Shown one piece after another: positions 2,812 through 46,110 of a stretch of DNA of 55,667 bases (its first letter is position 1; every line of letters starts with the position of its first letter). The DNA comes from a virus. The stretch covers positions 1 to 55,667 of the IMG/VR virus record IMGVR_UViG_3300023171_000315; one strand, given 5' to 3'. Made by a program: the position numbers and the translations under genes. The notes under the pieces are model-generated. The model was not told the DNA's origin. It saw nothing but the letters and a program-made list of their open reading frames with translations, and searched no databases.

Positions 2812-4056
2812 CTACAATGACGCCCCCACGCCTTTAAATTTGCTTGTCAAATCCGCGTTAACAGCATCACTAATTTTATCAAAGTATAAATTTTGACCAG
2901 AAATTATTAAAGTCGTTTTCTTGTCGTCGTATTGACCGAAAACCATTTTATTACCTGATATCACTTTATAATCTCTTGTTGGTTTACCGCCCTCTTGTCC
3001 TACTAAAGTTGCTCCCAAATTATTGTAATATTCTACTTTACCAAGAGTATTATAAAGAGTTAGTAATTCCCCCGCCCAATCAGTTGTTTTGTTTAAGTTT
3101 AAGGCGGTGTTATTGTATACTTTAGCATCTGCAGGTTGCGCTTGACGTTCAATAAAGTCAGGAGAAAACTGTAATTCAATCAAACCATATTTATCTCCAT
3201 CTACGCCAATATTATTGTAAATCTCCACCACTTTTCTTCCGTCGATACTATGAGGCCATATGCGCGCTAAATAACCTTGATAATTCGATGCTTTGTTATC
3301 GTGAAGCTTTCCTGTTGCCTTAAGGTAGAACATGCCGTTATCTTCATTATTTTGCTTATTGATATTTGTAAAACTATTTCCATAAATATCAAAGTCAAAA
3401 CCATTACCCAAGTAAACCATAAACTTCGAACCTAGATTGTTTTTTATGGTATTATTTATGAACTGGAAAGACTTGATTACACCATCATGAGTATTCAATG
3501 ATCTTACATTTCCATCTGAATGGAAAGGCCTGCCACCTCCGTCAAAACTAAAACCGTCTATGTTTAGTCGGTCAATAAATGTTCCTTCAACTCCTGGTTT
3601 GTAAACTACTTTATCAGCTTGAACCGTTTGGATCTGATAACCTGAAATATTCTGAAGTGTCAATCCTTTGTATCGCGCATTAATACTTTTACCATGGATA
3701 AGTAAAGCCTGATAGGAGTCTTTTACTTTAACCTTACTCAAATCAAATGAGCAGTTTTTAATATCTCTATGGTTTGCAGTTTGATTTGTTTCGACTCCCG
3801 TAACAACAAAATCAACTCCTTCAACTCCCTCGAGCTTGGCATAATCAGCATAACTAATCTCACGTGGTTTGTTGGGTGATGGAACGTTGATCGGGCCAGT
3901 TGGTGCTTTAGGCAAAGCATCAAATGCTTTCTGAACAGCTGCCTGAGCAATACTGCCAGTAACATCAAACTCAATACCGCTAGCAAGTTTTACTGTTCTT
4001 GTGGGCTCGCTGTAGACATATTCAACAGCCTTACCATTTACTTTAATCGTTGCCAT
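2812..4056 (-). CDS. Putative tail fibre/tailspike with right-handed beta-helix
   Basis: 414 aa. The first 45 residues are a small phage-type head domain, followed by a Pro-rich linker and a long region rich in short beta repeats with stacked Asn (INNTIKNNLGSK, IYGNSFTNINKQNNEDNG, IYNNIGVDGD), typical of pectate-lyase-like parallel beta-helices. Likely a receptor-binding or glycan-processing fibre. No catalytic motif could be assigned. It sits between the fibre genes and the lysis cassette, the usual place for distal tail proteins. Confidence 0.65.
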   Translation of the reverse strand: MATIKVNGKAVEYVYSEPTRTVKLASGIEFDVTGSIAQAAVQKAFDALPKAPTGPINVPSPNKPREISYADYAKLEGVEGVDFVVTGVETNQTANHRDIKNCSFDLSKVKVKDSYQALLIHGKSINARYKGLTLQNISGYQIQTVQADKVVYKPGVEGTFIDRLNIDGFSFDGGGRPFHSDGNVRSLNTHDGVIKSFQFINNTIKNNLGSKFMVYLGNGFDFDIYGNSFTNINKQNNEDNGMFYLKATGKLHDNKASNYQGYLARIWPHSIDGRKVVEIYNNIGVDGDKYGLIELQFSPDFIERQAQPADAKVYNNTALNLNKTTDWAGELLTLYNTLGKVEYYNNLGATLVGQEGGKPTRDYKVISGNKMVFGQYDDKKTTLIISGQNLYFDKISDAVNADLTSKFKGVGASL

Positions 4057-27661: not shown

Positions 27662-27976
27662 TTATTCTTGATCCTCTTTAGGCAACGTGAATGTTGTTTT
27701 GAATAAATCGAAGAATACATTTTCACATAAGTGTTTGCATATTTCTTTAGTGGGAAATACTCGGCGGGAACCGACATGCGAGAAGGCGATGTCGTAGTAG
27801 TAGTCGATAGACGAGAACCCAGAACCCGAACTTGGCGATAAGTCAAACCAAGGGTAATATTTACGCTGATCCCAATCAGTCCAATCAATTGTTTTGCCTT
27901 CAGATAGCCAAGAAGCTTTGCTTATCATCCAAATCTTAAATTCAGCAATGGCAAGCTGCTTTATCAGCTTCGTCAT
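27662..27976 (-). CDS. DGR variable protein (remote target 3)
   Basis: 104 aa with the Bacteroidota DGR-target signature YYPWF followed by a SSGSGFS-type entry and VGSR exit. The variable repeat (27766-27831) covers about residues 49-70; its differences from the template are all at template adenines. Smaller than the two targets next to the reverse transcriptase, and separated from it by about 17 kb. Expected to display a C-type-lectin-like ligand-binding surface. Ends with KEDQE. Confidence 0.85.
   Translation of the reverse strand: MTKLIKQLAIAEFKIWMISKASWLSEGKTIDWTDWDQRKYYPWFDLSPSSGSGFSSIDYYYDIAFSHVGSRRVFPTKEICKHLCENVFFDLFKTTFTLPKEDQE
27766..27831 (-). repeat. DGR variable repeat VR3
   Basis: 66 nt aligned without gaps to the template repeat at 45160-45225. 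Over the 50-nt core I count nine substitutions, all at template adenines, plus two A-to-G changes upstream. The 3' end reads TTCCCGCC where the template has TTCCCAAA, the expected IMH/IMH* contrast. Confidence 0.85.
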
Positions 27977-28105
27977 ATGCTGATGTATCTGGTAATAAAT
28001 TCGGATCTCTACCCAAAATTTTGCAAATGTCCTCCCATGAGGTTACGTCTAAAATTTTCATATATTCTATTTTTTAATTGGTGTCAATCAAATGTTGGCA
28101 GGTGT

Positions 28106-28140: not shown

Positions 28141-28905
28141 TAACCTAAACCAACTAAACTGCGCCTTACACGCTTTACCTTTGCCTCATCCTATCGGATT
28201 GCCCAGCGAATGGGGACTTTTAATTCGGTACGGGGCTCCCCTGCTACTAGTTATCAGATTTCGTATGTAATTCGACTGTCCCTCTTTATTAAGCTTCTCA
28301 AACAGTGTCGAAGCAGCTACGTATTTAGCGCGTTATCCTTTCCGAATCGTACTCAGCCTCACTCATGATTATGGCCTCCCTTACATACTAATTTCATCAA
28401 ACCAAAGAACCCCTATCTTGATGCATTTCTTTCGCCATGCATTGGCATTTGGTGCGGACTATTGGCACCCGAATTACCCTTACTCTAGTTAGGGCTTCAA
28501 TACATCGTTTCTAAATGTACTCGTCCAGTCCATGTGAACAGACCCCGACTTGAACGGGGATGATACCTTTGTCTGAGTGTTCTTTTAGATTAATTAATTC
28601 TGAAGGGATATCTCCCAACATTTTCATCAATCGCCTTTACGTAGATCCCAAGCTTCTCTGGCTGTCGCATTACGCTTTGAATAGGAGGTATCACGTGTAT
28701 AAACTCTAGCGTCTACCAATTCCGCCATCTGTTCAATAATAACAAACCTTCTACCTCTGAACCATACTTGCGCTGTGTAACTATGTCGGGCATCTTAACC
28801 TGATTCGGCAGGTTTGTTAACGCCAAAGCCACGACTTGTTTCAGATCGTGGCGACTTTCCCATGTTGCAGGGCTTGATTCAAATAACGTTGAGCGATTTG
28901 CTTAT
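28113..28905 (-). ncRNA. Large structured RNA (GOLLD/ROOL-like candidate)
   Basis: About 800-nt minus-strand locus between portal and DGR target 3. It has no convincing protein gene, a promoter-like element upstream and an intrinsic terminator downstream. Strong pairing is visible: TAACAAACCT/AGGTTTGTTA closing a multibranch domain, GCCACGA/TCGTGGC, CCTG/CAGG, GGTGC/GCACC, ATGCAT/ATGCAT, CGA-CTGT/ACAG-TCG, and a long-range GTATGTAA (28381-28388) with TTACATAC (28263-28270). It contains a tRNA-Leu-like skeleton. GOLLD and ROOL are large phage RNAs of similar size, often near tRNAs; identity is not shown here. Confidence 0.65.
28535..28734 (-). ncRNA. tRNA-Leu-like element with a 117-nt insert and no clear anticodon arm
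   Basis: Perfect 7-bp acceptor (GAACAGA 28734-28728 with TCTGTTC 28542-28536) with discriminator A, D arm GCG-GAATTGGTAGA-CGC, and T arm CCCCG-TTCAAGT-CGGGG. Next to the T arm TGATACCT (28693-28686) pairs with AGGTATCA (28568-28561), like a class II variable arm whose loop is 117 nt. Only 15 nt separate the D arm from this helix and they do not form a normal anticodon hairpin, so it cannot decode as written. No CCA encoded. Confidence 0.65.
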
Positions 28906-28921
28906 ACAATAATACAAACAA

Positions 28922-28946
28922 TATTCAATATATGCAATATTGCATA
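28922..28946. promoter_or_regulatory. Motif A: 25-bp dyad element upstream of the large RNA
   Basis: Plus-strand TATTCAATATATGCA plus ATATTGCATA; contains the palindrome ATGCAATATTGCAT. On the minus strand it supplies a TTG followed after 20 nt by TATTATTG, a near match to TAnnTTTG, so transcription would start near 28900. Confidence 0.7.
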
Positions 28947-28977
28947 ATAATTATTTTCACTTTGGCTCAAATGGCCA

Positions 28978-30420
28978 CTAATTGGTTATTTTCGGATCAG
29001 TTATTTTAGGAGCCAAAGCAGCACGAGCTGCTTCCTCTACCTTTATCTTTTCGTATTCTTCTTCTGGATTATCAGTAAAAGCAAGTTTGGCTATAGCCGT
29101 TTCCTTGCTCATTAAACCAGCGCCTACTAGAGTAGCTATATTCTGGTATTCCTCAGTTAAGTTGCGTGGTAATTTAATTTTAAATTTAGGCTTAATAACC
29201 ATGCTAATGGAAGGTTTGACGCTTACATTAATTACAGATAAGGCTGGCTTAAGAAAATTAAAGTGTCTTTGCCATTCCATACCCAAATCACCCTGTTGAT
29301 CTGATTCAGCTTGATTTGTAGCTGGCATAAACATCATCTCAATAGCTACACCAGGTATGTTTGAAGATCCGCTAATTTGCTCCATTGAAATTTGTGGAGT
29401 ATTAGTCTCATCATATATATCACGTCTTAAATTCTTTCGTTCTTCCGTAGCTGATGCTTGAGATCCTTTTGCTTCAACATATTTAAGATCTCCACCATTT
29501 TCTATTTCAAATGATTTTCGAGTGTTCTTCGTTCCACCACCAGACGCTGCTTCAATTTTACCGAATGAGGCCAATATAGGAAATGCACTGATTTGGTTTT
29601 CGTCTGCAGTATCTGAGTCTACCTCTTCCACCCGATCTATTTTAGGCAACACATCTGCGTAAATAGTTCTTTTTGTACCGTGAAAAACAAAGTTAGCCTT
29701 ATCATAAGCTATGGTCACGAAGGTAGGAGCTTCGTCTTTACCTACTGTGTATGTAATAATTCTGTCGGACAAATGCAGATCCAACTTTTCAATGTCATCT
29801 TCACCCACTTTAATGGAATATTTACGGGCGCAAGTAATCATATCATTATAACGATTGTAGATAGGGATAGCCAAGCTGCCGTCTTCAGGACTAAAAACAG
29901 AAAGTCTCATTTTAAACTTACTATTTGGCGATATATCTCCCCAAAAACCCTCCTCTGCTGGTACACTATACCACACTGCCATACATTGAGTGTAAGTCTT
30001 TTTTAGTCTGTCAATTTTTTGACAAACATAATCGAGCTTATTGTCCTCCCACGTCTTATCCATCATAGCGGCCATAGTTTCGTCACTAGCAAAGCCATCT
30101 CTAATTCGATAGTCCCTATCGATTCCTCCTGATAGGGCCATCCTAACACTCCAGTCAATAATTATTTTCTGTGTATTTGATGGAATACGATGGACGTCTT
30201 TTTTTTCGGTACGATAAGTCATGTTGCCTGCTGCATCGTAAACCCCTGTAGCTACATCAACATCGCGCCATGGTCGATAAGACTGATCTTTAACAACCTT
30301 ATGGTTTTCAGGTTCAATATCAAAAGCATACTCTGGAATTGTCGGCGCAAGTGCAACAATCTTTTCAACTAACTTTTTTGGTTCGCCCGCTAATAACTCT
30401 TGTAGTTCCTCTATTTCCAT
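28978..30420 (-). CDS. Phage portal protein
   Basis: 480 aa from the ATG at 30420 (MEIEELQELL); a longer frame starts 27 bp earlier. SPP1-like portal features: TEKKDVHRIPSNTQKIIIDW near the start, a central stem/wing (KMRLSVFSPEDGSLAIPIYN), and a helical acidic C-terminus (AIAKLAFTDNPEEEYEKI). Forms the dodecameric ring at the DNA-entry vertex. Downstream of the large terminase with one small gene between. Its stop lies 32 bp from motif A. Confidence 0.85.
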   Translation of the reverse strand: MEIEELQELLAGEPKKLVEKIVALAPTIPEYAFDIEPENHKVVKDQSYRPWRDVDVATGVYDAAGNMTYRTEKKDVHRIPSNTQKIIIDWSVRMALSGGIDRDYRIRDGFASDETMAAMMDKTWEDNKLDYVCQKIDRLKKTYTQCMAVWYSVPAEEGFWGDISPNSKFKMRLSVFSPEDGSLAIPIYNRYNDMITCARKYSIKVGEDDIEKLDLHLSDRIITYTVGKDEAPTFVTIAYDKANFVFHGTKRTIYADVLPKIDRVEEVDSDTADENQISAFPILASFGKIEAASGGGTKNTRKSFEIENGGDLKYVEAKGSQASATEERKNLRRDIYDETNTPQISMEQISGSSNIPGVAIEMMFMPATNQAESDQQGDLGMEWQRHFNFLKPALSVINVSVKPSISMVIKPKFKIKLPRNLTEEYQNIATLVGAGLMSKETAIAKLAFTDNPEEEYEKIKVEEAARAALAPKITDPKITN

Positions 30421-36434: not shown

Positions 36435-37889
36435 TTATTTTAAAACTATATCGACAAATTCAATTTTTTCTTGAGGTATGGTTTGGTGATCTAACCATGA
36501 TTTTTTGTAACCCATTGCAGCAGAGAAGTGAATCAGAAAGCCGTGGTTAATTTGTTCCTGTGCTTTCGCAATTCTTGCTGCGTAATGTTTTTTATTTTTT
36601 AATTTGGCATAATTAGCTAATTCTACTGGACTCAACTCACTTATCTTTTTACCCACCAATACATGATATTCGTCGGTTAAATCAATCAGCTCACCTTGGG
36701 CCATCCTTACTTCATTTTCAGGATATTCGTAATCACAATAGCTACATATCCTTGATGATATTGGAATGATGCTTTCACATGATGGGCAAGCTTTAGAAGT
36801 TGATGCCCCTTCTTTATCACTTGGCCTTTTTACTTTATTCCATAATTCCGAATAAGGCCTATCCTCAAAATATAAACCATGATCTTTCCAGTTGTTTCCA
36901 TAGTCAAGAACCGTAAACATATCCTTACCTGGATAGATCCTTGAACCCCTGCCAATCTCTTGTTGATATAAAGAGGTACTTTTTGTTTTGTGCATTAATG
37001 CAACCATATCAATGGGAGGATAATCCCAACCTTTTGATAATGACTTAATGGTTACCAGAATATTACACATATCCAGTTCGGTAAACTTGGCTAATTCATA
37101 ATCGCCATGATCCAAACCTGAATGATATCTGGTTGCGGCAAAACCTTCGTTATTCAAATTGACGTACAAAGCTTCGGCCTGCTTGATTGACGCAACGAAG
37201 ATGACACATTTTTTAAAAGGGAATGTCCTTAAATCTTCATACAAGCCATCATAAACAGCTCGGGCGCCAAATACACTTTCCTGTGATTTTTCAGTGTATT
37301 CACCGTTTCGAATTTGTAGTAATGAGGTATCAGCTGGGGTTCTTGCTTTATGGCGGTAGTTGGTTAAGAATCCATTCTGAATTAACCAATCAACCTGTGG
37401 TCCTTCAACCAAATCATTATAATATTCAGGCAAATGCTTATGTAAAACACCATATGGAGTAGCGGTTAAGCCAATACGATAAGCATTAGGTAAATGATCA
37501 ATTAGCTTGGTCGATGTAGCCACATGAGCTTCATCAATAAGCAATATCAGATTCTCCTTTAGGTTATCAAGTTGTTTGACTATTACTGGCCTTTTAAGGA
37601 GTGTCTGTATCATCCCAACGTAACAATGGCTTGCCTTTATCGTAGCCTCTTTAACTTTACTATTCAATTCTATACCACTGCATTCTTGTACAAGCTGATT
37701 GTAAATTTTTACAGCATCCGAAAGAACTAACACGGTTTTACCCTTTACGCAGGCATTCGAAACAATCATGCTAATCATTAAACTTTTACCAGCGCCTGTT
37801 GGAGCATGCATAATGACAGCCTTATTTTTTGCTAGTGATATACTTGTCCTTTTGACAAGATCCAATTGATAATCTCTCGGCTTTTTCAT
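36435..37889 (-). CDS. DEAH-family SF2 helicase
   Basis: 484 aa. Walker A PTGAGKS (30-36), DEAH box at 119-122 (IDEAHVA), motif III TAT at 142-144, and a conserved C-terminal region with QQEIGRGSRIYPG (motif VI). The last quarter has a zinc ribbon (CPSCESIIPISSRICSYC). Unwinds DNA during replication or recombination. One base after the RecA-like gene. Confidence 0.9.
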   Translation of the reverse strand: MKKPRDYQLDLVKRTSISLAKNKAVIMHAPTGAGKSLMISMIVSNACVKGKTVLVLSDAVKIYNQLVQECSGIELNSKVKEATIKASHCYVGMIQTLLKRPVIVKQLDNLKENLILLIDEAHVATSTKLIDHLPNAYRIGLTATPYGVLHKHLPEYYNDLVEGPQVDWLIQNGFLTNYRHKARTPADTSLLQIRNGEYTEKSQESVFGARAVYDGLYEDLRTFPFKKCVIFVASIKQAEALYVNLNNEGFAATRYHSGLDHGDYELAKFTELDMCNILVTIKSLSKGWDYPPIDMVALMHKTKSTSLYQQEIGRGSRIYPGKDMFTVLDYGNNWKDHGLYFEDRPYSELWNKVKRPSDKEGASTSKACPSCESIIPISSRICSYCDYEYPENEVRMAQGELIDLTDEYHVLVGKKISELSPVELANYAKLKNKKHYAARIAKAQEQINHGFLIHFSAAMGYKKSWLDHQTIPQEKIEFVDIVLK

Positions 37890-38467
37890 TATGCGTAAAT
37901 AAAATCAGTACTGTTTGTTTTGTGTTTCGCTATTGCAGCCCATACTGTTCCCTTAGGTCTGTTAATGGTAAAAGCGGCTTCAGTTAAGCATTCGTAGTAG
38001 ATGCCTGTTTTAGTGTTTAAAATCCATTTTGATAGCCTGTTATTCGCTCCTGATATAGATTGTTTTTGTTTAGATCTTCCTTCAGGAGAGCATGTTTTAC
38101 CATACATTCCATTATTCTTACCTGAGTTACGAATCGAAATTTTTCTTTTTACTTCGTCAGATACCCTACCAGAACGACCCTCGCATCCAACCAATCTGAT
38201 ATTCATTCCTTTTTTATTAAGTACGTTATACGCTTCTTGAAAATACCGTTCAAGTTTATTCAGATCTTCGGCTTCACATGTTGTTAATATCTCCATGTTG
38301 TGAGCATTGAAGCCATATTTCTTAATTGAGTTGTATATGATGTGCTGACCTTTACATGTCGAGTTTCTATAATGGCGTTGCCTCTCTTTATAGCACACTG
38401 TCTGTCCAATATAAACCCTACCTGTAGGGCTAGTAATTTTGTAAATACATGTTATACCTTTCTTCAT
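37889..38467 (-). CDS. GIY-YIG homing endonuclease
   Basis: 192 aa. GIY-YIG-like start ITCIYKITSPTGRVYIGQT, then RQRHYRNST and a helix with an acidic catalytic candidate, and a C-terminal DNA-binding part with NUMOD-like repeats (RSGRVSDEVKRKISIRNSGK). A free-standing selfish nuclease set between helicase and DUF3223 genes, probably a recent insertion as it breaks the replication order. Stop and start overlap with neighbours. Confidence 0.85.
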   Translation of the reverse strand: MKKGITCIYKITSPTGRVYIGQTVCYKERQRHYRNSTCKGQHIIYNSIKKYGFNAHNMEILTTCEAEDLNKLERYFQEAYNVLNKKGMNIRLVGCEGRSGRVSDEVKRKISIRNSGKNNGMYGKTCSPEGRSKQKQSISGANNRLSKWILNTKTGIYYECLTEAAFTINRPKGTVWAAIAKHKTNSTDFIYA

Positions 38468-39657: not shown

Positions 39658-40077
39658 TTATTTACATCCCACATTAGCCATTAGCTTAAACATTTCAATT
39701 TCGGCTTTTGCCAAATCTATAAGTTGTTTTACGCTATTGTTAACAGCAGCGGCCTGAGGAACAAAAGATTTATCCTTATTAACATTTCTTATATTTTCCA
39801 ACAAAATATTTTTTATTTCAACGCCAGTAGTTCCGACCATGGTACGTTTGCTTAACAAATGCAAACTACCGCCAGTATCATCGCTTTCAACTTGCTTAAA
39901 CAAAGGCAAAACTTCATCAATATCAGAAGTGAATATCACTACATCCGATACGTCAGTGGTTATTTTTAACTTGGCTTCTGACAATTCATACCGAATAACT
40001 CGGTGTTCTACTTTATTATAGCTGTAAACCTTTCCAATCATCGACTGCATTTGATTCTCAATTTCCTGTTTTTTCAT
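39658..40077 (-). CDS. Hypothetical replication-region protein
   Basis: 139 aa with mixed helices (QEIENQMQSMIGKVYSYNK), a beta segment (KITTDVSDVVIFTSDIDEV), and a helical end (KQLIDLAKAEIEMFKLMANV). Overlaps the HNH gene by 20 bp. No family recognised. Confidence 0.5.
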   Translation of the reverse strand: MKKQEIENQMQSMIGKVYSYNKVEHRVIRYELSEAKLKITTDVSDVVIFTSDIDEVLPLFKQVESDDTGGSLHLLSKRTMVGTTGVEIKNILLENIRNVNKDKSFVPQAAAVNNSVKQLIDLAKAEIEMFKLMANVGCK

Positions 40078-40951
40078 TTATTATTCGATTTAGTTTAAGT
40101 TGTTGACGTTTTATATCTAATAGTTCGGGATGATTAAGCAATTCCTTCTGTAATTCCTTATTTACTTTTTTGCTTTTCATCGCCATGTACATTGCTACCT
40201 TATTATCTGTTGGATTATCTGGGTCATTATTTCTTAATATATTTTCCTTTCTGGTAATGCATTCTAAATTATTTAATTCTACATTCAAAGAGTCACCATC
40301 TTTAAACCAAAGGCAATGATTCTTTGGGACTTTACCATTTTGTTGTTCCCATAAATATGTGTGAAGCGGAACCCAATTACCAATGCTCAGGCAGGTATAC
40401 TTGTAAGGATTACCTCCCCTTTTGGCATGGTCATACCTAATTGTAATTTTACCAACTTCATCATAACAGTTATGAGGCTTATTGCCTTTATTAAAACGGG
40501 TCGCTTTGGTTCGCTCAATAGCTTCAGCACTCATGTATTCTGATTGCTTTTTACCTTTATTGAAAGAGACATTACCCTTAGCTATACGGCTATTTTTTAT
40601 CCGTTGCTCAATAATTTCTCGGGGGACAACTAAGTTTAGCTGCCGCATTCTGGTCTTAACTTTCACCTCACTACATCCTAAAACGTCTGCTATCTGTTGT
40701 GGAGGAGTTGATAAATAATTTGCAGTTATGTAAGCATCGTCTTCGAGTGAGCAGCTAGTTCTTCTGGATGCTTTAGCAGCAGCAAATGATCGACTTATTG
40801 CATATGGTACAATTAGCCCGTTGCGTTTTTTATACCCACTTACACCACCTTCACCAATTCCAATCGCTATTGCAATATCTGAATTGCTTTGTTTTAGGTA
40901 ATAGGCTCGTATATACGTTTCCTGATCCGGTGTTAATTTTGTTTTTGCCAT
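40058..40951 (-). CDS. HNH homing endonuclease with HTH modules
   Basis: 297 aa. Two helix-turn-helix repeats at the N-terminus (SNSDIAIAIGIGEGGVSGYK and TPPQQIADVLGCSEVKVKTR), then an HNH_3 nuclease region: VPLHTYLWEQQNGKVPKNHC and DSLNVELNNLECITRKENIL. A mobile or modification-dependent nuclease, probably inserted in the replication block. Overlaps the preceding gene by 20 bp. Confidence 0.8.
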   Translation of the reverse strand: MAKTKLTPDQETYIRAYYLKQSNSDIAIAIGIGEGGVSGYKKRNGLIVPYAISRSFAAAKASRRTSCSLEDDAYITANYLSTPPQQIADVLGCSEVKVKTRMRQLNLVVPREIIEQRIKNSRIAKGNVSFNKGKKQSEYMSAEAIERTKATRFNKGNKPHNCYDEVGKITIRYDHAKRGGNPYKYTCLSIGNWVPLHTYLWEQQNGKVPKNHCLWFKDGDSLNVELNNLECITRKENILRNNDPDNPTDNKVAMYMAMKSKKVNKELQKELLNHPELLDIKRQQLKLNRIINEKTGN

Positions 40952-42746: not shown

Positions 42747-43712
42747 CTATCCTGTGCAGTAGCCGCCGTGGCAGCCACCACATTGCATCTGAAATAAGTT
42801 TGTTTGTATTCCAATATCTCTGATATCTTTCATCGCCATCGTATGGTGAAAAGTTGATTTATCGTCTTTCATCATTTCAATCATTACCATTGAATTCATT
42901 GTTGCTGGTTGTGTTTCGAAATTTTGTCTTAATTGTTGCGGATGCTTCCAAAAACAGAATTGGCAATTACTATCTAATGGGAATTGGATATCCTTATCTC
43001 TCCAAAATCTTTGAACATCTGACTGAGTTATTCCGTCCTCTACAAGTGGGAATTCGCCAATTCTGAATGGAATCTCTGCCCACCTGTGACGATGTAGTAA
43101 ACTCCATCCATGATAGTAGTTTATCTCGCAATCTTCTGGCGTCACTTTACATTTCAGCAAAACCTTTTTCATGTTGCCTGGAACATCTTCGCCAATATTA
43201 TCATACACGAATTCACAGTGAGTAGAATACATGAAAGTGTCTTTAAAATTGTTTACTCGATGTGCTTCATCCGATCTGAATCCAACTCGCATCTTGCATG
43301 GTAAAGAATGATACATTAACAAATGCTCGAATATTGGCTTTATCTTAAATTCCGTAGTACACCATCTGTGGTGCTTATTTGGAAGTGTCTGCTTCGTTTC
43401 CACTAAACTCTGAAATCCTTTACCACGTAACCAAACTATTTCCCTCCCCGTCATTTGTTCTAAATCAAGCATGGTTTTGATAATCAACGGATCTTCTGCT
43501 GTACCCAAAAATTCCAACTGATGGCTACAATATTTTTGAAGCTTATCATTAACGATCTGCCTAACGTGGTTATCAATTTTGAAGGTTGTTGATCCCGCAT
43601 TTGCATTATGACTATCAATACACACCAATGCAAACAGAGAAACATCTGCAGGGTAATGCATTTCAAGAAATGAGCTCGTTTTACCACCAGAAAGACTATT
43701 TACTGTTATCAT
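42747..43712 (-). CDS. PAPS-reductase/adenine nucleotide alpha hydrolase-like protein
   Basis: 321 aa. PP-loop-like SGGKTS (8-13) at the N-terminus, then a substrate domain with WCTTEFKIKP. Cysteine-rich motifs CQFCFWKHPQ and CGGCHGGYC near the C-terminus suggest an iron-sulfur or zinc site. Phage copies probably adenylate substrates in sulfur chemistry or nucleotide modification; the substrate is unknown. It ends near a terminator hairpin, upstream of PcfK. Confidence 0.75.
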   Translation of the reverse strand: MITVNSLSGGKTSSFLEMHYPADVSLFALVCIDSHNANAGSTTFKIDNHVRQIVNDKLQKYCSHQLEFLGTAEDPLIIKTMLDLEQMTGREIVWLRGKGFQSLVETKQTLPNKHHRWCTTEFKIKPIFEHLLMYHSLPCKMRVGFRSDEAHRVNNFKDTFMYSTHCEFVYDNIGEDVPGNMKKVLLKCKVTPEDCEINYYHGWSLLHRHRWAEIPFRIGEFPLVEDGITQSDVQRFWRDKDIQFPLDSNCQFCFWKHPQQLRQNFETQPATMNSMVMIEMMKDDKSTFHHTMAMKDIRDIGIQTNLFQMQCGGCHGGYCTG

Positions 43713-43752: not shown

Positions 43753-44049
43753 TTATGTAAACTCGTATCGTTCACCAACTTCAACTATTGTGGTTGTGAA
43801 GGGGAAATCATCGGCGCTCATTTGGGATACTATATCCATGAGCACTACGCTTCCGGTGAACACTAACCGAGGTTCGTTATTTAATAATATTGACAGATAA
43901 AGACATTTGCCTTTGCCTTCGTATTTTGAATCAACTATCTCGAATCCGTTAACAACGATCGGTTGATTGAATACTTTTTTAATTTTAATTTTTTCGCCTT
44001 CTCTTTTTTTGATTGATGGGCGGATGTTTAGGTCTTTAAAGTTTTTCAT
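43753..44049 (-). CDS. Hypothetical DGR-adjacent protein
   Basis: 98 aa. Basic start (MKNFKDLNIRPSIKKREGEK), then beta-rich KVFNQPIVVNGFEIVDSKY and a C-terminal MDIVSQMSADDFPFTTTIV. Does not look like the four-helix accessory Avd. It follows the reverse transcriptase by 26 bp, so a role in retrohoming or in something unrelated are both possible. Confidence 0.5.
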   Translation of the reverse strand: MKNFKDLNIRPSIKKREGEKIKIKKVFNQPIVVNGFEIVDSKYEGKGKCLYLSILLNNEPRLVFTGSVVLMDIVSQMSADDFPFTTTIVEVGERYEFT

Positions 44050-44075: not shown

Positions 44076-45032
44076 CTATTCTTTTGGAGGGATAAGCTTT
44101 TTAATTAGATGTTTGGTATTAGCGTGTTTACACCAACCCAGATAAGATGCAAGTGAACTTCGGTTTATTCCTTTCGCTACCTTTCTGGCAAATTCACGTT
44201 TGATGGTTGGCCTTAATAATACATGAGTGTGGTAATGCTTATAGCCTACAAAGTCAACACTGCGAGAGGCTACAGGAAACACTTGCCAGTTTTCCTTAAC
44301 TGTTAAGTTTAATCGATTAGCTAGGTATGCCGTAATGCCATTAAGCGCCTTATGCAAGTAATTTTTATCATGATGCAGTATTACGATATCATCAGCGTAC
44401 CTGAAATAATATTTAACGGCCTTTTGCTCTTTGATCCAGTGATCGAAGTAGGCCAAATAAAAGTTGGCAAAGTATTGGCTTAAATAATTTCCGATCGGTA
44501 AACCTGGTGCACTGTCAATGATACCATCAAGAAGGGCAAGCAGCTCAGTATCTTTTATTTTCTTGCGCAATAAAACTTTAAGTATTGCATGATCGACATT
44601 CGGATAGAACTTCTTGATATCAAGTTTTAAGCAATAAGTAGTACCGACAACATCGCAAAGTGCCTCACGTAAAGCTCTGCTAGCTGCATGAATACCTTTG
44701 CCTTTAATGCAACTGTAAGTGTCCGTTGTAAATACAGATACAAACATTGTCTCTAGCAAATTCATGATAGCATGGTGAACAATTCGATCACGATATGGAA
44801 GGATCGATATTACGCGCTCTTTACGTTCGAAAATAGTCCGTGTCCTATAGGTGCCCGTTTTATAAGTACCCGTAATTAAATCACGATAGATATCGGCAAT
44901 ATTTTGATCGAAGTTCTTATCAAATTCAATAATCCCCGACTGTTTTGCTTTCCCCTTGCGTGCAAGCTTATCAGCTAAAAGCAAGTTGTCTATGCTGCAG
45001 ATGTTCTCAAATAAATTACCGATTCTTTTCAT
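44076..45032 (-). CDS. Diversity-generating retroelement reverse transcriptase
   Basis: 318 aa. DGR hallmark IGNYLSQ (180-186) in RT motif 4 in place of the QGxxxSP of group II introns, catalytic LDIKKFY with D138, and YADD (212-215). C-terminus KRSLASYLGWCKHANTK is typical of the thumb. It copies the template RNA with errors at adenines and the cDNA replaces variable repeats. Downstream of the template in one minus-strand operon with two targets. No maturase or endonuclease domain. Confidence 0.95.
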   Translation of the reverse strand: MKRIGNLFENICSIDNLLLADKLARKGKAKQSGIIEFDKNFDQNIADIYRDLITGTYKTGTYRTRTIFERKERVISILPYRDRIVHHAIMNLLETMFVSVFTTDTYSCIKGKGIHAASRALREALCDVVGTTYCLKLDIKKFYPNVDHAILKVLLRKKIKDTELLALLDGIIDSAPGLPIGNYLSQYFANFYLAYFDHWIKEQKAVKYYFRYADDIVILHHDKNYLHKALNGITAYLANRLNLTVKENWQVFPVASRSVDFVGYKHYHTHVLLRPTIKREFARKVAKGINRSSLASYLGWCKHANTKHLIKKLIPPKE

Positions 45033-45159
45033 ATTATTTACAGGCCGTTAAGCCTTTGCTTTGTAGGTCGTTTTCACTTTCGTTACCAACGCCCTTATAA
45101 GTAATTGTTATTTTTTGCCAAGAGGCAAGGTCTGTGCTGACAATATTTTTAGCAAATTT

Positions 45160-45229
45160 GGGAACTGACATTCGAGTTGTCGTTGTCGTAGTTGTAGTCG
45201 TTATACGAGAACCTAGAACCTGAACCAGC
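45160..45229 (-). repeat. DGR template repeat (TR)
   Basis: 70 nt between target 1 and the reverse transcriptase, aligned gap-free with both nearby VRs. In the 50-nt core I count 17 adenines; 16 of them differ in at least one VR. Minus-strand frame gives GSGSRFSYNDY-type Asn/Tyr/Asp codons. 3' end TTCCCAAA is the IMH* variant. A plus-Thr-like frame through it is not a gene. Confidence 0.9.
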
Positions 45230-45253
45230 ACTCAGCACACCACCCTTAATTTT

Positions 45254-45628
45254 TTATTTCATAAAGCCTTTATACTCTTCCAGAAATGTTTTTCCTGCGA
45301 ATTTGGCTAGATCACGCGTTTTAAGAACAAGGCGGGAACCGACAGTCGAGCGGCCGCCGTCGTAGTTGCAGTCGTCATACGAGAACCCAGAACCCGAACC
45401 AGCCTTATCCCGCATATCAAACCAAGGATAATATTTATATTCATCCCAGTTATTCCAATCTGGAACCCAACCTTCGTTTAATACTCTGTTGATTCGAAGT
45501 ACTTTTGCAAAGCTATTGATAGCAATATCTTCTGGTGTAGTTGCATTTTGGATCGGCAATGAGGCCACTGGATCTACATTGTCAATTTTGCAGATGTCTT
45601 CGTAAGTTTTAATATTTTCTAAATTCAT
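45254..45628 (-). CDS. DGR variable protein (target 1)
   Basis: 124 aa. N-terminal half helical with KVLRINRVLNEGWVPDWNNW, then EYKYYPWF (target signature), VR-coded residues 76-98 and a helix ending KTFLEEYKGFMK. The pattern matches C-type-lectin-like DGR proteins of Bacteroidota phages. The diversified surface probably binds a receptor or ligand; where the protein is located is unknown. Follows target 2 by 11 bp. Confidence 0.88.
   Translation of the reverse strand: MNLENIKTYEDICKIDNVDPVASLPIQNATTPEDIAINSFAKVLRINRVLNEGWVPDWNNWDEYKYYPWFDMRDKAGSGSGFSYDDCNYDGGRSTVGSRLVLKTRDLAKFAGKTFLEEYKGFMK
45334..45403 (-). repeat. DGR variable repeat VR1
   Basis: 70 nt gap-free with the TR. Eleven differences in total, all at template adenines (A-to-G mostly, two A-to-C). 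Followed by GCC where the TR has AAA, so the 3' end is TTCCCGCC. Confidence 0.9.
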
Positions 45629-45639
45629 GATATTATTGA

Positions 45640-46110
45640 TTAACCATTAATAAATTCGTTGTATTCGGCAGTAAAGGTTTTGCCAGCATATTCTGCCAAT
45701 GCTGATGTTTCAAGTAAAAGGCGGGAAACGACATCCGAGCGGACGTAGACGTAGGCGTAGACGAAAAACGAGAACCCAGAACCCGAACCAGCAGAATTGA
45801 ACCAAGGGTAGTACTTGTATACGCCCGCATCTTTATAGTCAAGATACTTACCGCCATTAAGCGCATAAACAATCATCTTGCATTTTTTGTAGCCAACTTC
45901 ATCAGGTGTGTCATTAGCTGTACGCTCTGCAAATTGTTCCGCTGTTTCGTTGTGAAATGCCAGTACATCAGCAAATGACTTGAATACATCCTGAGTTTTA
46001 AGGCCCAATTCTATTGGAGTGAAATTGGCCTTTAGTAAAACATCAAGGGCAGAGTTTTGACCTAACAAACCTTTAGCCTGGTCAATGTTTAATTCAATTG
46101 ATTTTTTCAT
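45640..46110 (-). CDS. DGR variable protein (target 2)
   Basis: 156 aa from the ATG at 46110 (MKKSIELN). N-terminal helical region (DVFKSFADVLAFHNETAEQF), then KYYPWF, VR-coded residues 107-129, and a C-terminal AEYAGKTFTAEYNEF helix. Similar end sequence to target 1. Lies behind a terminator at 46143-46170, so expression relies on read-through or a weak promoter. Confidence 0.88.
   Translation of the reverse strand: MKKSIELNIDQAKGLLGQNSALDVLLKANFTPIELGLKTQDVFKSFADVLAFHNETAEQFAERTANDTPDEVGYKKCKMIVYALNGGKYLDYKDAGVYKYYPWFNSAGSGSGFSFFVYAYVYVRSDVVSRLLLETSALAEYAGKTFTAEYNEFING
45723..45792 (-). repeat. DGR variable repeat VR2
   Basis: 70 nt gap-free with the TR: 15 of 16 differences at template adenines, one G-to-T near the 3' end. 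Mostly A-to-T, unlike the A-to-G bias of VR1, giving Phe/Val/Tyr codons. 3' end is TTCCCGCC. Confidence 0.9.

Follow-up and report, generated by a model that had tools for sequence, protein, structure and literature searches.

The window analyzed here, positions 1–55,667 of the IMG/VR virus record IMGVR_UViG_3300023171_000315, carries a DGR cassette on its minus strand, whose parts follow one another in the direction of transcription as target 2 (T2), target 1 (T1), template repeat (TR), spacer, RT and the gene for a 98-aa protein. The features of the cassette are the following.

43753–44049, minus strand: 98-aa OB-fold-like protein directly 3' of the RT, a proposed DGR accessory (conserved place; AlphaFold; Hankyphage fusion)
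44076–45032, minus strand: DGR RT, 318 aa (IGNYLSQ and YADD; Pfam RVT_1, 2e-20; PHROG 1423, 3e-123)
45055–45132, minus strand: structured RNA between TR and RT, Rfam RT-17 (RF03020; 40.8 bits; covariation)
45157–45164, minus strand: IMH*-like end of the TR (TTCCCAAA), the name IMH* being given by analogy with BPP-1
45160–45229, minus strand: TR, not in a target-type open frame (TR/VR comparison); mutagenic core at 45167–45213 (limits from the alignment of 157 pairs)
45254–45628, minus strand: T1, 124 aa (VR1 in frame; PHROG 11581, 5e-20)
45334–45403, minus strand: variable repeat VR1, inside T1 (11 of 11 differences at template A)
45640–46110, minus strand: T2, 156 aa from the ATG at 46110, distal type (VR2 in frame; tree)
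45723–45792, minus strand: VR2, inside T2 (15 of 16 differences at template A)

The open reading frame list starts T2 at a GTG (46140); the ATG at 46110 is used here. A PAPS-reductase-like gene flanks the cassette on one side and an SSB-like gene on the other, the latter encoding a DUF3127 protein that adjoins the cassette opposite the OB-fold-like protein. The PAPS-reductase-like protein (42747–43712, minus strand) matches PHROG 424 at 9e-16 and SspD of PADLOC at 6e-15; LoVEphage likewise has a PAPS reductase close to its T-family gene. Genes resembling GIY-YIG-type and HNH homing endonucleases are found in the replication block (37889–38467 and 40058–40951, minus strand). The RT carries the two motifs named in the original prediction, IGNYLSQ and YADD, which correspond to the GxxxSQ-type motif 4 and YxDD of DGR RTs and are present in all 80 RT relatives, themselves fetched by similarity. 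A Pfam scan of ten neighboring proteins gave no match to Avd (PF05635-like). PF05635 is described as resembling Avd (PMC10053308), and Avd is reported to be absent from about a quarter of DGRs (PMC7290462).

The proposal of a DGR with one template and A-directed variation was borne out by comparison of the repeats. TR and VR1 differ at 11 positions, every one a template A, and TR and VR2 at 16, of which 15 are A and the remaining one is a G to T change; over the 70 nt, the probability of such a bias by chance is 3.5e-8 for VR1 and 8e-11 for VR2. As had been noted, the stretch from TR position 26 to 64 holds 17 A, and 16 of these differ in at least one of VR1 and VR2, position 41 alone being invariant. 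The ends were also read correctly: all three VRs, including the remote one described below, end in TTCCCGCC and the TR ends in TTCCCAAA, a difference that makes them a candidate IMH/IMH* pair. When C, G or T was freed instead of A, the best non-self site kept at least 11 mismatches. Within the 47-nt core, which holds 16 A, the differences at A number 8 of 8 in VR1, 12 of 12 in VR2 and 8 of 8 in VR3 (28 of 28 in total; p = 4e-5, 3.5e-8 and 4e-5, respectively).

To set the limits of the transferred segment, 157 TR/VR pairs (154 from relatives and 3 from the window) were aligned on a conserved anchor. Between about positions -43 and -1, each of the other three bases is met in place of template A, and the 2421 cells at template A between -48 and -2 hold A in 890, G in 753, T in 511 and C in 267. 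Non-A positions are hardly altered inside the core, and from about -5 onward non-A changes are frequent once more. Each flank has template A that are nearly always G in the VR, at -51 (66 of 75), -44 (70 of 76), +4 (127 of 151) and +11 (110 of 131). The simplest reading of these alignments would be that cDNA transfer ends within the flanking A/G marks and that the transferred core measures about 46 nt. This bears on the earlier counting of every A difference as mutagenesis, which holds for the core, where all differences are at A, and needs correction outside it. TR positions 9, 16 and 64 are G in all three window VRs and nearly always G across the 157 pairs, window included (66 of 75, 70 of 76 and 127 of 151 cases), and are therefore probably fixed flank differences and not mutagenesis hits. 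The VRs lie within open frames near the 3' end, with about 24 residues after the VR in relatives. A search for a BPP-1-like hairpin or cruciform just after the VR, restricted to perfect stems with loops of 3–6 within 50 nt, found none in 157 VRs against 0.6 expected from shuffles.

The targets had been described as adjacent. VR1 and VR2 do lie side by side, but a third VR lies 17.3 kb away, with the following features.

27662–27976, minus strand: target 3 (T3), the frame holding VR3, proximal type, 17.3 kb from the TR (whole-window scan; protein search)
27766–27835, minus strand: VR3, inside T3 (core 8 of 8 differences at A; ends TTCCCGCC)
27942–28061, minus strand: stretch homologous to the N-terminal half of proximal-type targets, in a frame other than that of VR3 (best 10 hits all proximal targets)

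In a scan of the whole window with A free, VR3 was the only site beyond TR, VR1 and VR2 with as few as 3 non-A mismatches, the next best having 24, and it was recovered independently through the protein search. It differs from the TR at 11 A and at 3 non-A positions; these 3 fall within the first 4 nt, which are not part of the repeat. By its best hits T3 is of proximal type, in the N-terminal half (10 of 10) as in the middle part (8 of 10). The halves of T3 are in different frames, yet the VR3 core matches the template perfectly at non-A positions; the split may come from the assembly, from decay of the gene or from a true change of frame. The portal gene stands on one side of T3 and head genes on the other, with MazG-like and other small genes nearby. 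The roughly 700 bases between T3 and the portal gene (28270–28978) hold no ORF of 80 aa, tRNA or Rfam match.

The arrangement is conserved among relatives. With the RT as query, IMG/VR yielded 481 relatives, and the 80 best of these were retained. At least two VRs lie upstream of the RT in 71 of these 80; the five lacking any VR all have a contig start no more than 350 nt from the RT. The proximal VR stands some 180–210 nt and the distal VR some 550–660 nt before the TR. Clustering of the genes around the 80 RTs and in the window left only three families in more than 30 of the 81 loci, namely the RT, the targets and the small protein 3' of the RT; the RT and the small protein fell into one cluster and were separated afterwards by profile. 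These shared parts place the cassette in a conserved phage DGR subtype, as judged from sequence, made up of short paired targets, TR, structured spacer RNA, RT and an OB-fold protein. The subtype is set apart by its OB-fold partner, short paired targets and short core, and the mechanism itself is that of an ordinary DGR.

The VR is common to the targets of a locus through conversion from the same TR, and the target tree was built after its removal. Proximal and distal targets form two largely separate groups, not cleanly so: the proximal label requires 7 changes against 48.4 in shuffles and the distal label 14 against 47.5, values that none of 500 shuffles reached. The tree has few columns and 148 rows (128 different), with near-copies and unsettled bootstrap support; 9 of the 157 targets, with a front part under 60 aa, were left out. 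Because of this separation, the pair appears to be old and co-inherited, not newly duplicated in each phage. The N-terminal part is longer in distal than in proximal targets (59 target proteins picked by hand). T2 groups with the distal targets of loci L006–L008 (support 100/98), and T1 gives mixed signals, grouping weakly with distal targets in the tree (98/73) and having six proximal and four distal targets among its best ten BLAST hits. T1 and T2 are paralogous, with 71% identity over 146 nt.

The third conserved family is the small protein 3' of the RT. Counting the window, 79 loci extend for 1300 nt or more from the RT start, and in 78 of them a profile found a homologue directly after the RT; the sole exception, L077, has a template poor in A. 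A reverse search with the small protein alone gave 12 loci (11 viral and one Bacteroidetes MAG), all with a DGR RT directly 5'. T-family targets are present in 10 of them, and the other two contigs end too soon. Among 225 further DGR loci with room on both sides, 79 have the OB protein together with T targets, 3 the OB protein only, 6 T targets only and 137 neither; these loci span several RT lineages with their relatedness left in, and some contigs repeat the first set. The loci with T targets and no OB protein beside the RT (L168, L169, L170, L241, L365, L367) and those with the OB protein and no T targets (L222, L240, L285) are genuine exceptions. None of 72 loci with under 45% RT identity had the OB protein. 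Other families of about 125 aa stand 3' of the RT in related DGRs that lack the OB protein (L176–L180, L182–L184, L224, L228–L233 and others) and are possibly subtype-specific partners. L365 and L367 have an extra protein with target-family features where the OB protein would stand.

An AlphaFold model of the 98-aa protein (pLDDT 87.2, pTM 0.70) has the strand order of an OB fold, and an OB fold is accordingly what the model predicts for it. VIA-align matched the model to OB domains at middling Z scores of 4.3–6.5, a range that common arrangements also reach, and many of the rows are single-strand binders such as SSB, PriB and mitochondrial SSB; Foldseek gave no hit at E <= 0.001. Four of 61 distinct OB proteins (L024, L040, L058, L070) were left out. 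In the phage collection only 22 records match, 19 of them Bacteroides phages, and where these are annotated the match falls under reverse transcriptase features. The 434-aa RT of Hankyphage (BK010646.1) matches the RT profile over residues 1–324 and the small-protein profile over residues 327–422 (1e-14), and in L066 the RT and OB protein share one frame up to the contig end. Fusion, fixed place and reverse search together make it very likely that the OB protein works in partnership with the RT. Avd is not necessarily replaced by it, as the annotation of Hankyphage lists an Avd besides the RT–OB fusion (PMC12135933). Accessory proteins named for DGRs are Avd, HRDC and MSL (PMC10053308), and our searches of the open-access literature found no OB-fold DGR accessory.

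Between TR and RT lies the structured RNA. The RT-17 match passes narrowly, at 40.8 bits against a gathering score of 40.4, and weaker RT-14 and RT-18 matches fall at the same place; the RT-17 threshold is passed by 4 of 9 relatives scanned whole and by 1 of 11 further loci. Distinct spacers numbered 66, of which two (L029, L077) were left out. In the 64 aligned relatives, 84% of the cells in a five-helix structure are paired, compared with 74% in shuffles and 33–47% when the structure is slid, and both sides of a pair have changed in 124 cells versus 29.7 in shuffles. This covariation is carried by helices 2, 4 and 5 and partly by helix 3. A closing stem (helix 1), formed by the segment next to the TR and the segment before the RT start, was considered and is not supported: only one of its five pairs has both-side change, and in an alignment-free test covering 34 of the 64 rows the own segment scored 13.6 against 13.4 for foreign ones and was better in 14 of 34.

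Related RNAs occupy the same place elsewhere. Hankyphage has RT-3 between TR and RT, and LBR48 has RT-18 just before the RT. RT-3, RT-18 and RT-17 stand directly before DGR RTs, at 3331–3480 of locus L381, 702–777 of locus L101 and 45055–45132 of the window, respectively, and all three may belong to DGRs as structures of the template RNA. The BPP-1 spacer is reported to fold and to recruit the RT complex (PMC12875486); by analogy, the spacer here would recruit the RT. Rfam lists RT-3, RT-17 and RT-18 as sRNA genes only, and a place between TR and RT would give them a function. No description of RT-n RNAs as DGR parts was found in the open-access literature searched.

T1 and T2 match a single family, PHROG 11581, which carries no functional annotation. 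No known family was found for T1, T2 or the OB protein in NCBIfam or PADLOC, a sequence search of the PDB gave nothing convincing (best E 0.92 and 0.1), and in Pfam the protein sets A1 and A2 had nothing beyond stray weak matches, in at most 3 of 58 and 1 of 59 members. The T1 model is good outside the VR (pLDDT 86.5, pTM 0.82) and weak within it (58–67). Against the PDB it had no match at E <= 0.001 and, among 73 chains, none with Z >= 2; a C-type-lectin fold, sought in the PDB, was likewise not matched. Its five BFVD matches at E <= 0.001 are all nameless phage proteins, several of them crAss-like. The T proteins leave no room for the usual lectin domain with its anchor; they may be a reduced lectin. 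The genes beside the cassettes mostly lack a functional annotation, and those with a name include RecT, RecE, exonuclease, helicase, integrase, DNA methyltransferase and terminase. Of these neighbors, 114 of 151 lying upstream and 110 of 185 lying downstream were scanned, and no tail family occurs among the 25 most matched families of either list (97 and 113 families in all). In LoVEphage the T-family gene stands beside methyltransferases and a tRNA ligase.

T-family genes also occur far from the RT that serves them. In the crAss-like phage cr60_1, two genes are matched by the TR that adjoins the RT: a tail gene, over 93 nt with 23 of 32 A changed, and a T-family gene, over 58 nt with 15 of 20 A changed. 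The corresponding values in cr56_1 are 92 nt and 22 of 33 A for the tail gene and 68 nt and 18 of 24 A for the T-family gene. The T gene lies some 46 kb (cr60_1) and 54 kb (cr56_1) from the tail target, among unnamed genes, and scans of both T loci with C, G or T freed gave no match. These matches suggest that T-family genes have also been recruited as remote second targets. At loci L098 and L103, L379 and L380 (crAss-like cr60_1, cr56_1), one TR thus serves both a tail protein and, at a distance, a small gene of the T family; no description of such an arrangement was met in the open literature searched. In a global survey, phage DGR targets are mostly tail proteins and fall into 24 target clusters, by a method that is reported to miss remote targets (PMC8144416). 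Two targets are reported in about 13% of DGRs (PMC10743442) and multiple VRs in 28.6% (PMC6642488).

The cassette shares with BPP-1 (PMC3240598, PMC12875486) an RT, a single TR, A-directed VR variation, IMH/IMH* ends and a structured TR–RT spacer. However, BPP-1 has Avd, a hairpin after the VR and a tail fiber target, whereas the cassette has no Avd among ten neighbors and an OB-fold protein 3' of the RT instead, the subtype has no such hairpin in any of 157 VRs, and its targets are small, with a transferred core of about 46 nt. Since neither Avd nor the hairpin was found in the scans made, the cassette is outside the BPP-1 type. Hankyphage p00, whose A-directed DGR activity was measured by its authors (PMC6199706, PMC12135933), carries an OB-like homologue as the C-terminal part of its RT. 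It differs in having a single large target, a tail protein with a C-type lectin domain, and an annotated Avd (same reports), and in a spacer RNA that matches RT-3 rather than RT-17. The crAss-like cr56_1 and cr60_1 and crAssphage LMMB share the target–TR–RT order, and no Avd is reported for LMMB. The RTs of cr56_1 and cr60_1 are 53% identical to that of the window, and in both the same TR serves a T-family gene. In these DGRs, in contrast to the cassette, the adjacent target is a tail protein and the T gene is remote; cr52_1 and cr60_1 have no OB protein beside the RT.

Among two-target systems, Quimbyvirus is like the cassette in its non-structural target, which is described in a block with methyltransferases, and unlike it in an RT spread over three frames and one target in the structural module (PMC8008677). 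The setting of the LoVEphage T gene resembles that of the Quimbyvirus non-structural target (PMC8008677). The tentaclin DGRs nd4 and nd12 likewise have two different targets per DGR, but their target1 exceeds 500 aa and has C-lectin and Ig-like domains (PMC10743442).

Past mutagenic retrohoming, as originally predicted, is by far the best account of the TR/VR pattern, given the A-only core differences in three VRs and 157 pairs. That T1 and T2 are paralogous might suggest a tandem duplication followed by ordinary mutation or gene conversion with no retroelement. This has practically no chance of being right: the differences are confined to template A in three copies and 157 pairs, the controls with another base freed fail, and the A-only pattern together with the RT and these controls rules out ordinary repeats or gene conversion. 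The cassette could instead be a relic, with mutagenesis in an ancestor and the element dead here, which would fit the different frames of the T3 halves, and activity is beyond what one contig can show. Yet RT, T1, T2 and the OB gene are all open, the core non-A positions are identical to the TR, as would not be expected of a long-dead repeat, and the flank and spacer elements are conserved, and we regard a dead element as quite improbable. Nearly as improbable is that the OB-like protein is an ordinary phage SSB that sits beside the RT by chance and takes no part in retrohoming. Phages carry many OB proteins, an SSB-like DUF3127 protein stands at the other side of the cassette, and the VIA-align rows include plain SSBs; however, this protein is the only family other than RT and targets in more than 30 of 81 loci, holds a fixed place, lies beside a DGR RT in 12 of 12 reverse-search loci and is fused to the DGR RT in Hankyphage.

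The role of the targets is less settled. They may be virion or receptor-binding parts, as in most phage DGRs, with their place among early genes accidental. The predominance of annotated tail proteins in the global survey (PMC8144416) agrees with this, as does the use of the same TR for a tail protein and a T-family gene in cr56_1 and cr60_1. Against it, the T proteins have only 120–160 aa and match no tail family in Pfam, NCBIfam or PHROGs, the most matched families of the scanned neighbors include no tail family, and the T genes of the two crAss-like phages lie tens of kilobases from the tail target among unnamed genes; a virion role thus seems unlikely, if far from negligible. Because the targets are short, lack a virion-family match and lie among early genes, we favor a role inside the cell. 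They would be small soluble binders in the infected or lysogenic cell, most likely acting in phage–host or phage–phage conflict, a reading that we hold tentatively and rate at a little under an even chance.

We are highly confident that the cassette is a working-type DGR of a temperate phage, of a subtype with two or more short targets, TR, structured spacer RNA, RT and OB-fold protein. In the mechanism that we propose, the TR and the RNA 3' of it would be transcribed, and the folded spacer would recruit the RT, as extrapolated from BPP-1. The RT would then copy the TR and misread A, and the cDNA would replace about 46 nt of the VR between the flank positions with A in the TR and G in the VR. 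The OB-fold protein would most likely act with the RT on the RNA template or, by binding it, on the single-stranded cDNA. The element would presumably still be active today. The original prediction was incomplete and not wrong, having missed the third target, the flank markers, the OB-fold protein, the spacer RNA and the age of the target pair.

Many DGRs have no known accessory protein, and the subtype described here offers an OB-fold candidate that is separate in the cassette and fused to the RT in the experimentally active Hankyphage. A compact, Avd-free cassette with a separate accessory candidate would allow a clear gene-removal test of the accessory role in mutagenic retrohoming, and its transferred core of about 46 nt and targets of about 125 aa make it compact enough for reconstitution. 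A bolder picture, which we think rather doubtful as a whole, is that of a matched pair of small proteins repeatedly re-invented in the cell. The two would be ancient, co-inherited paralogues sharing one mutating hairpin, might form a heteromer whose two binding faces vary independently, and would be directed at proteins of the host or of rival phages, with RT and OB-fold protein doing the writing and orphan Rfam 'RT' RNAs serving as template handles. Action of the paired targets in the cell would make them hypervariable phage proteins that are not part of the virion, in a role of the kind proposed for Quimbyvirus (PMC8008677).
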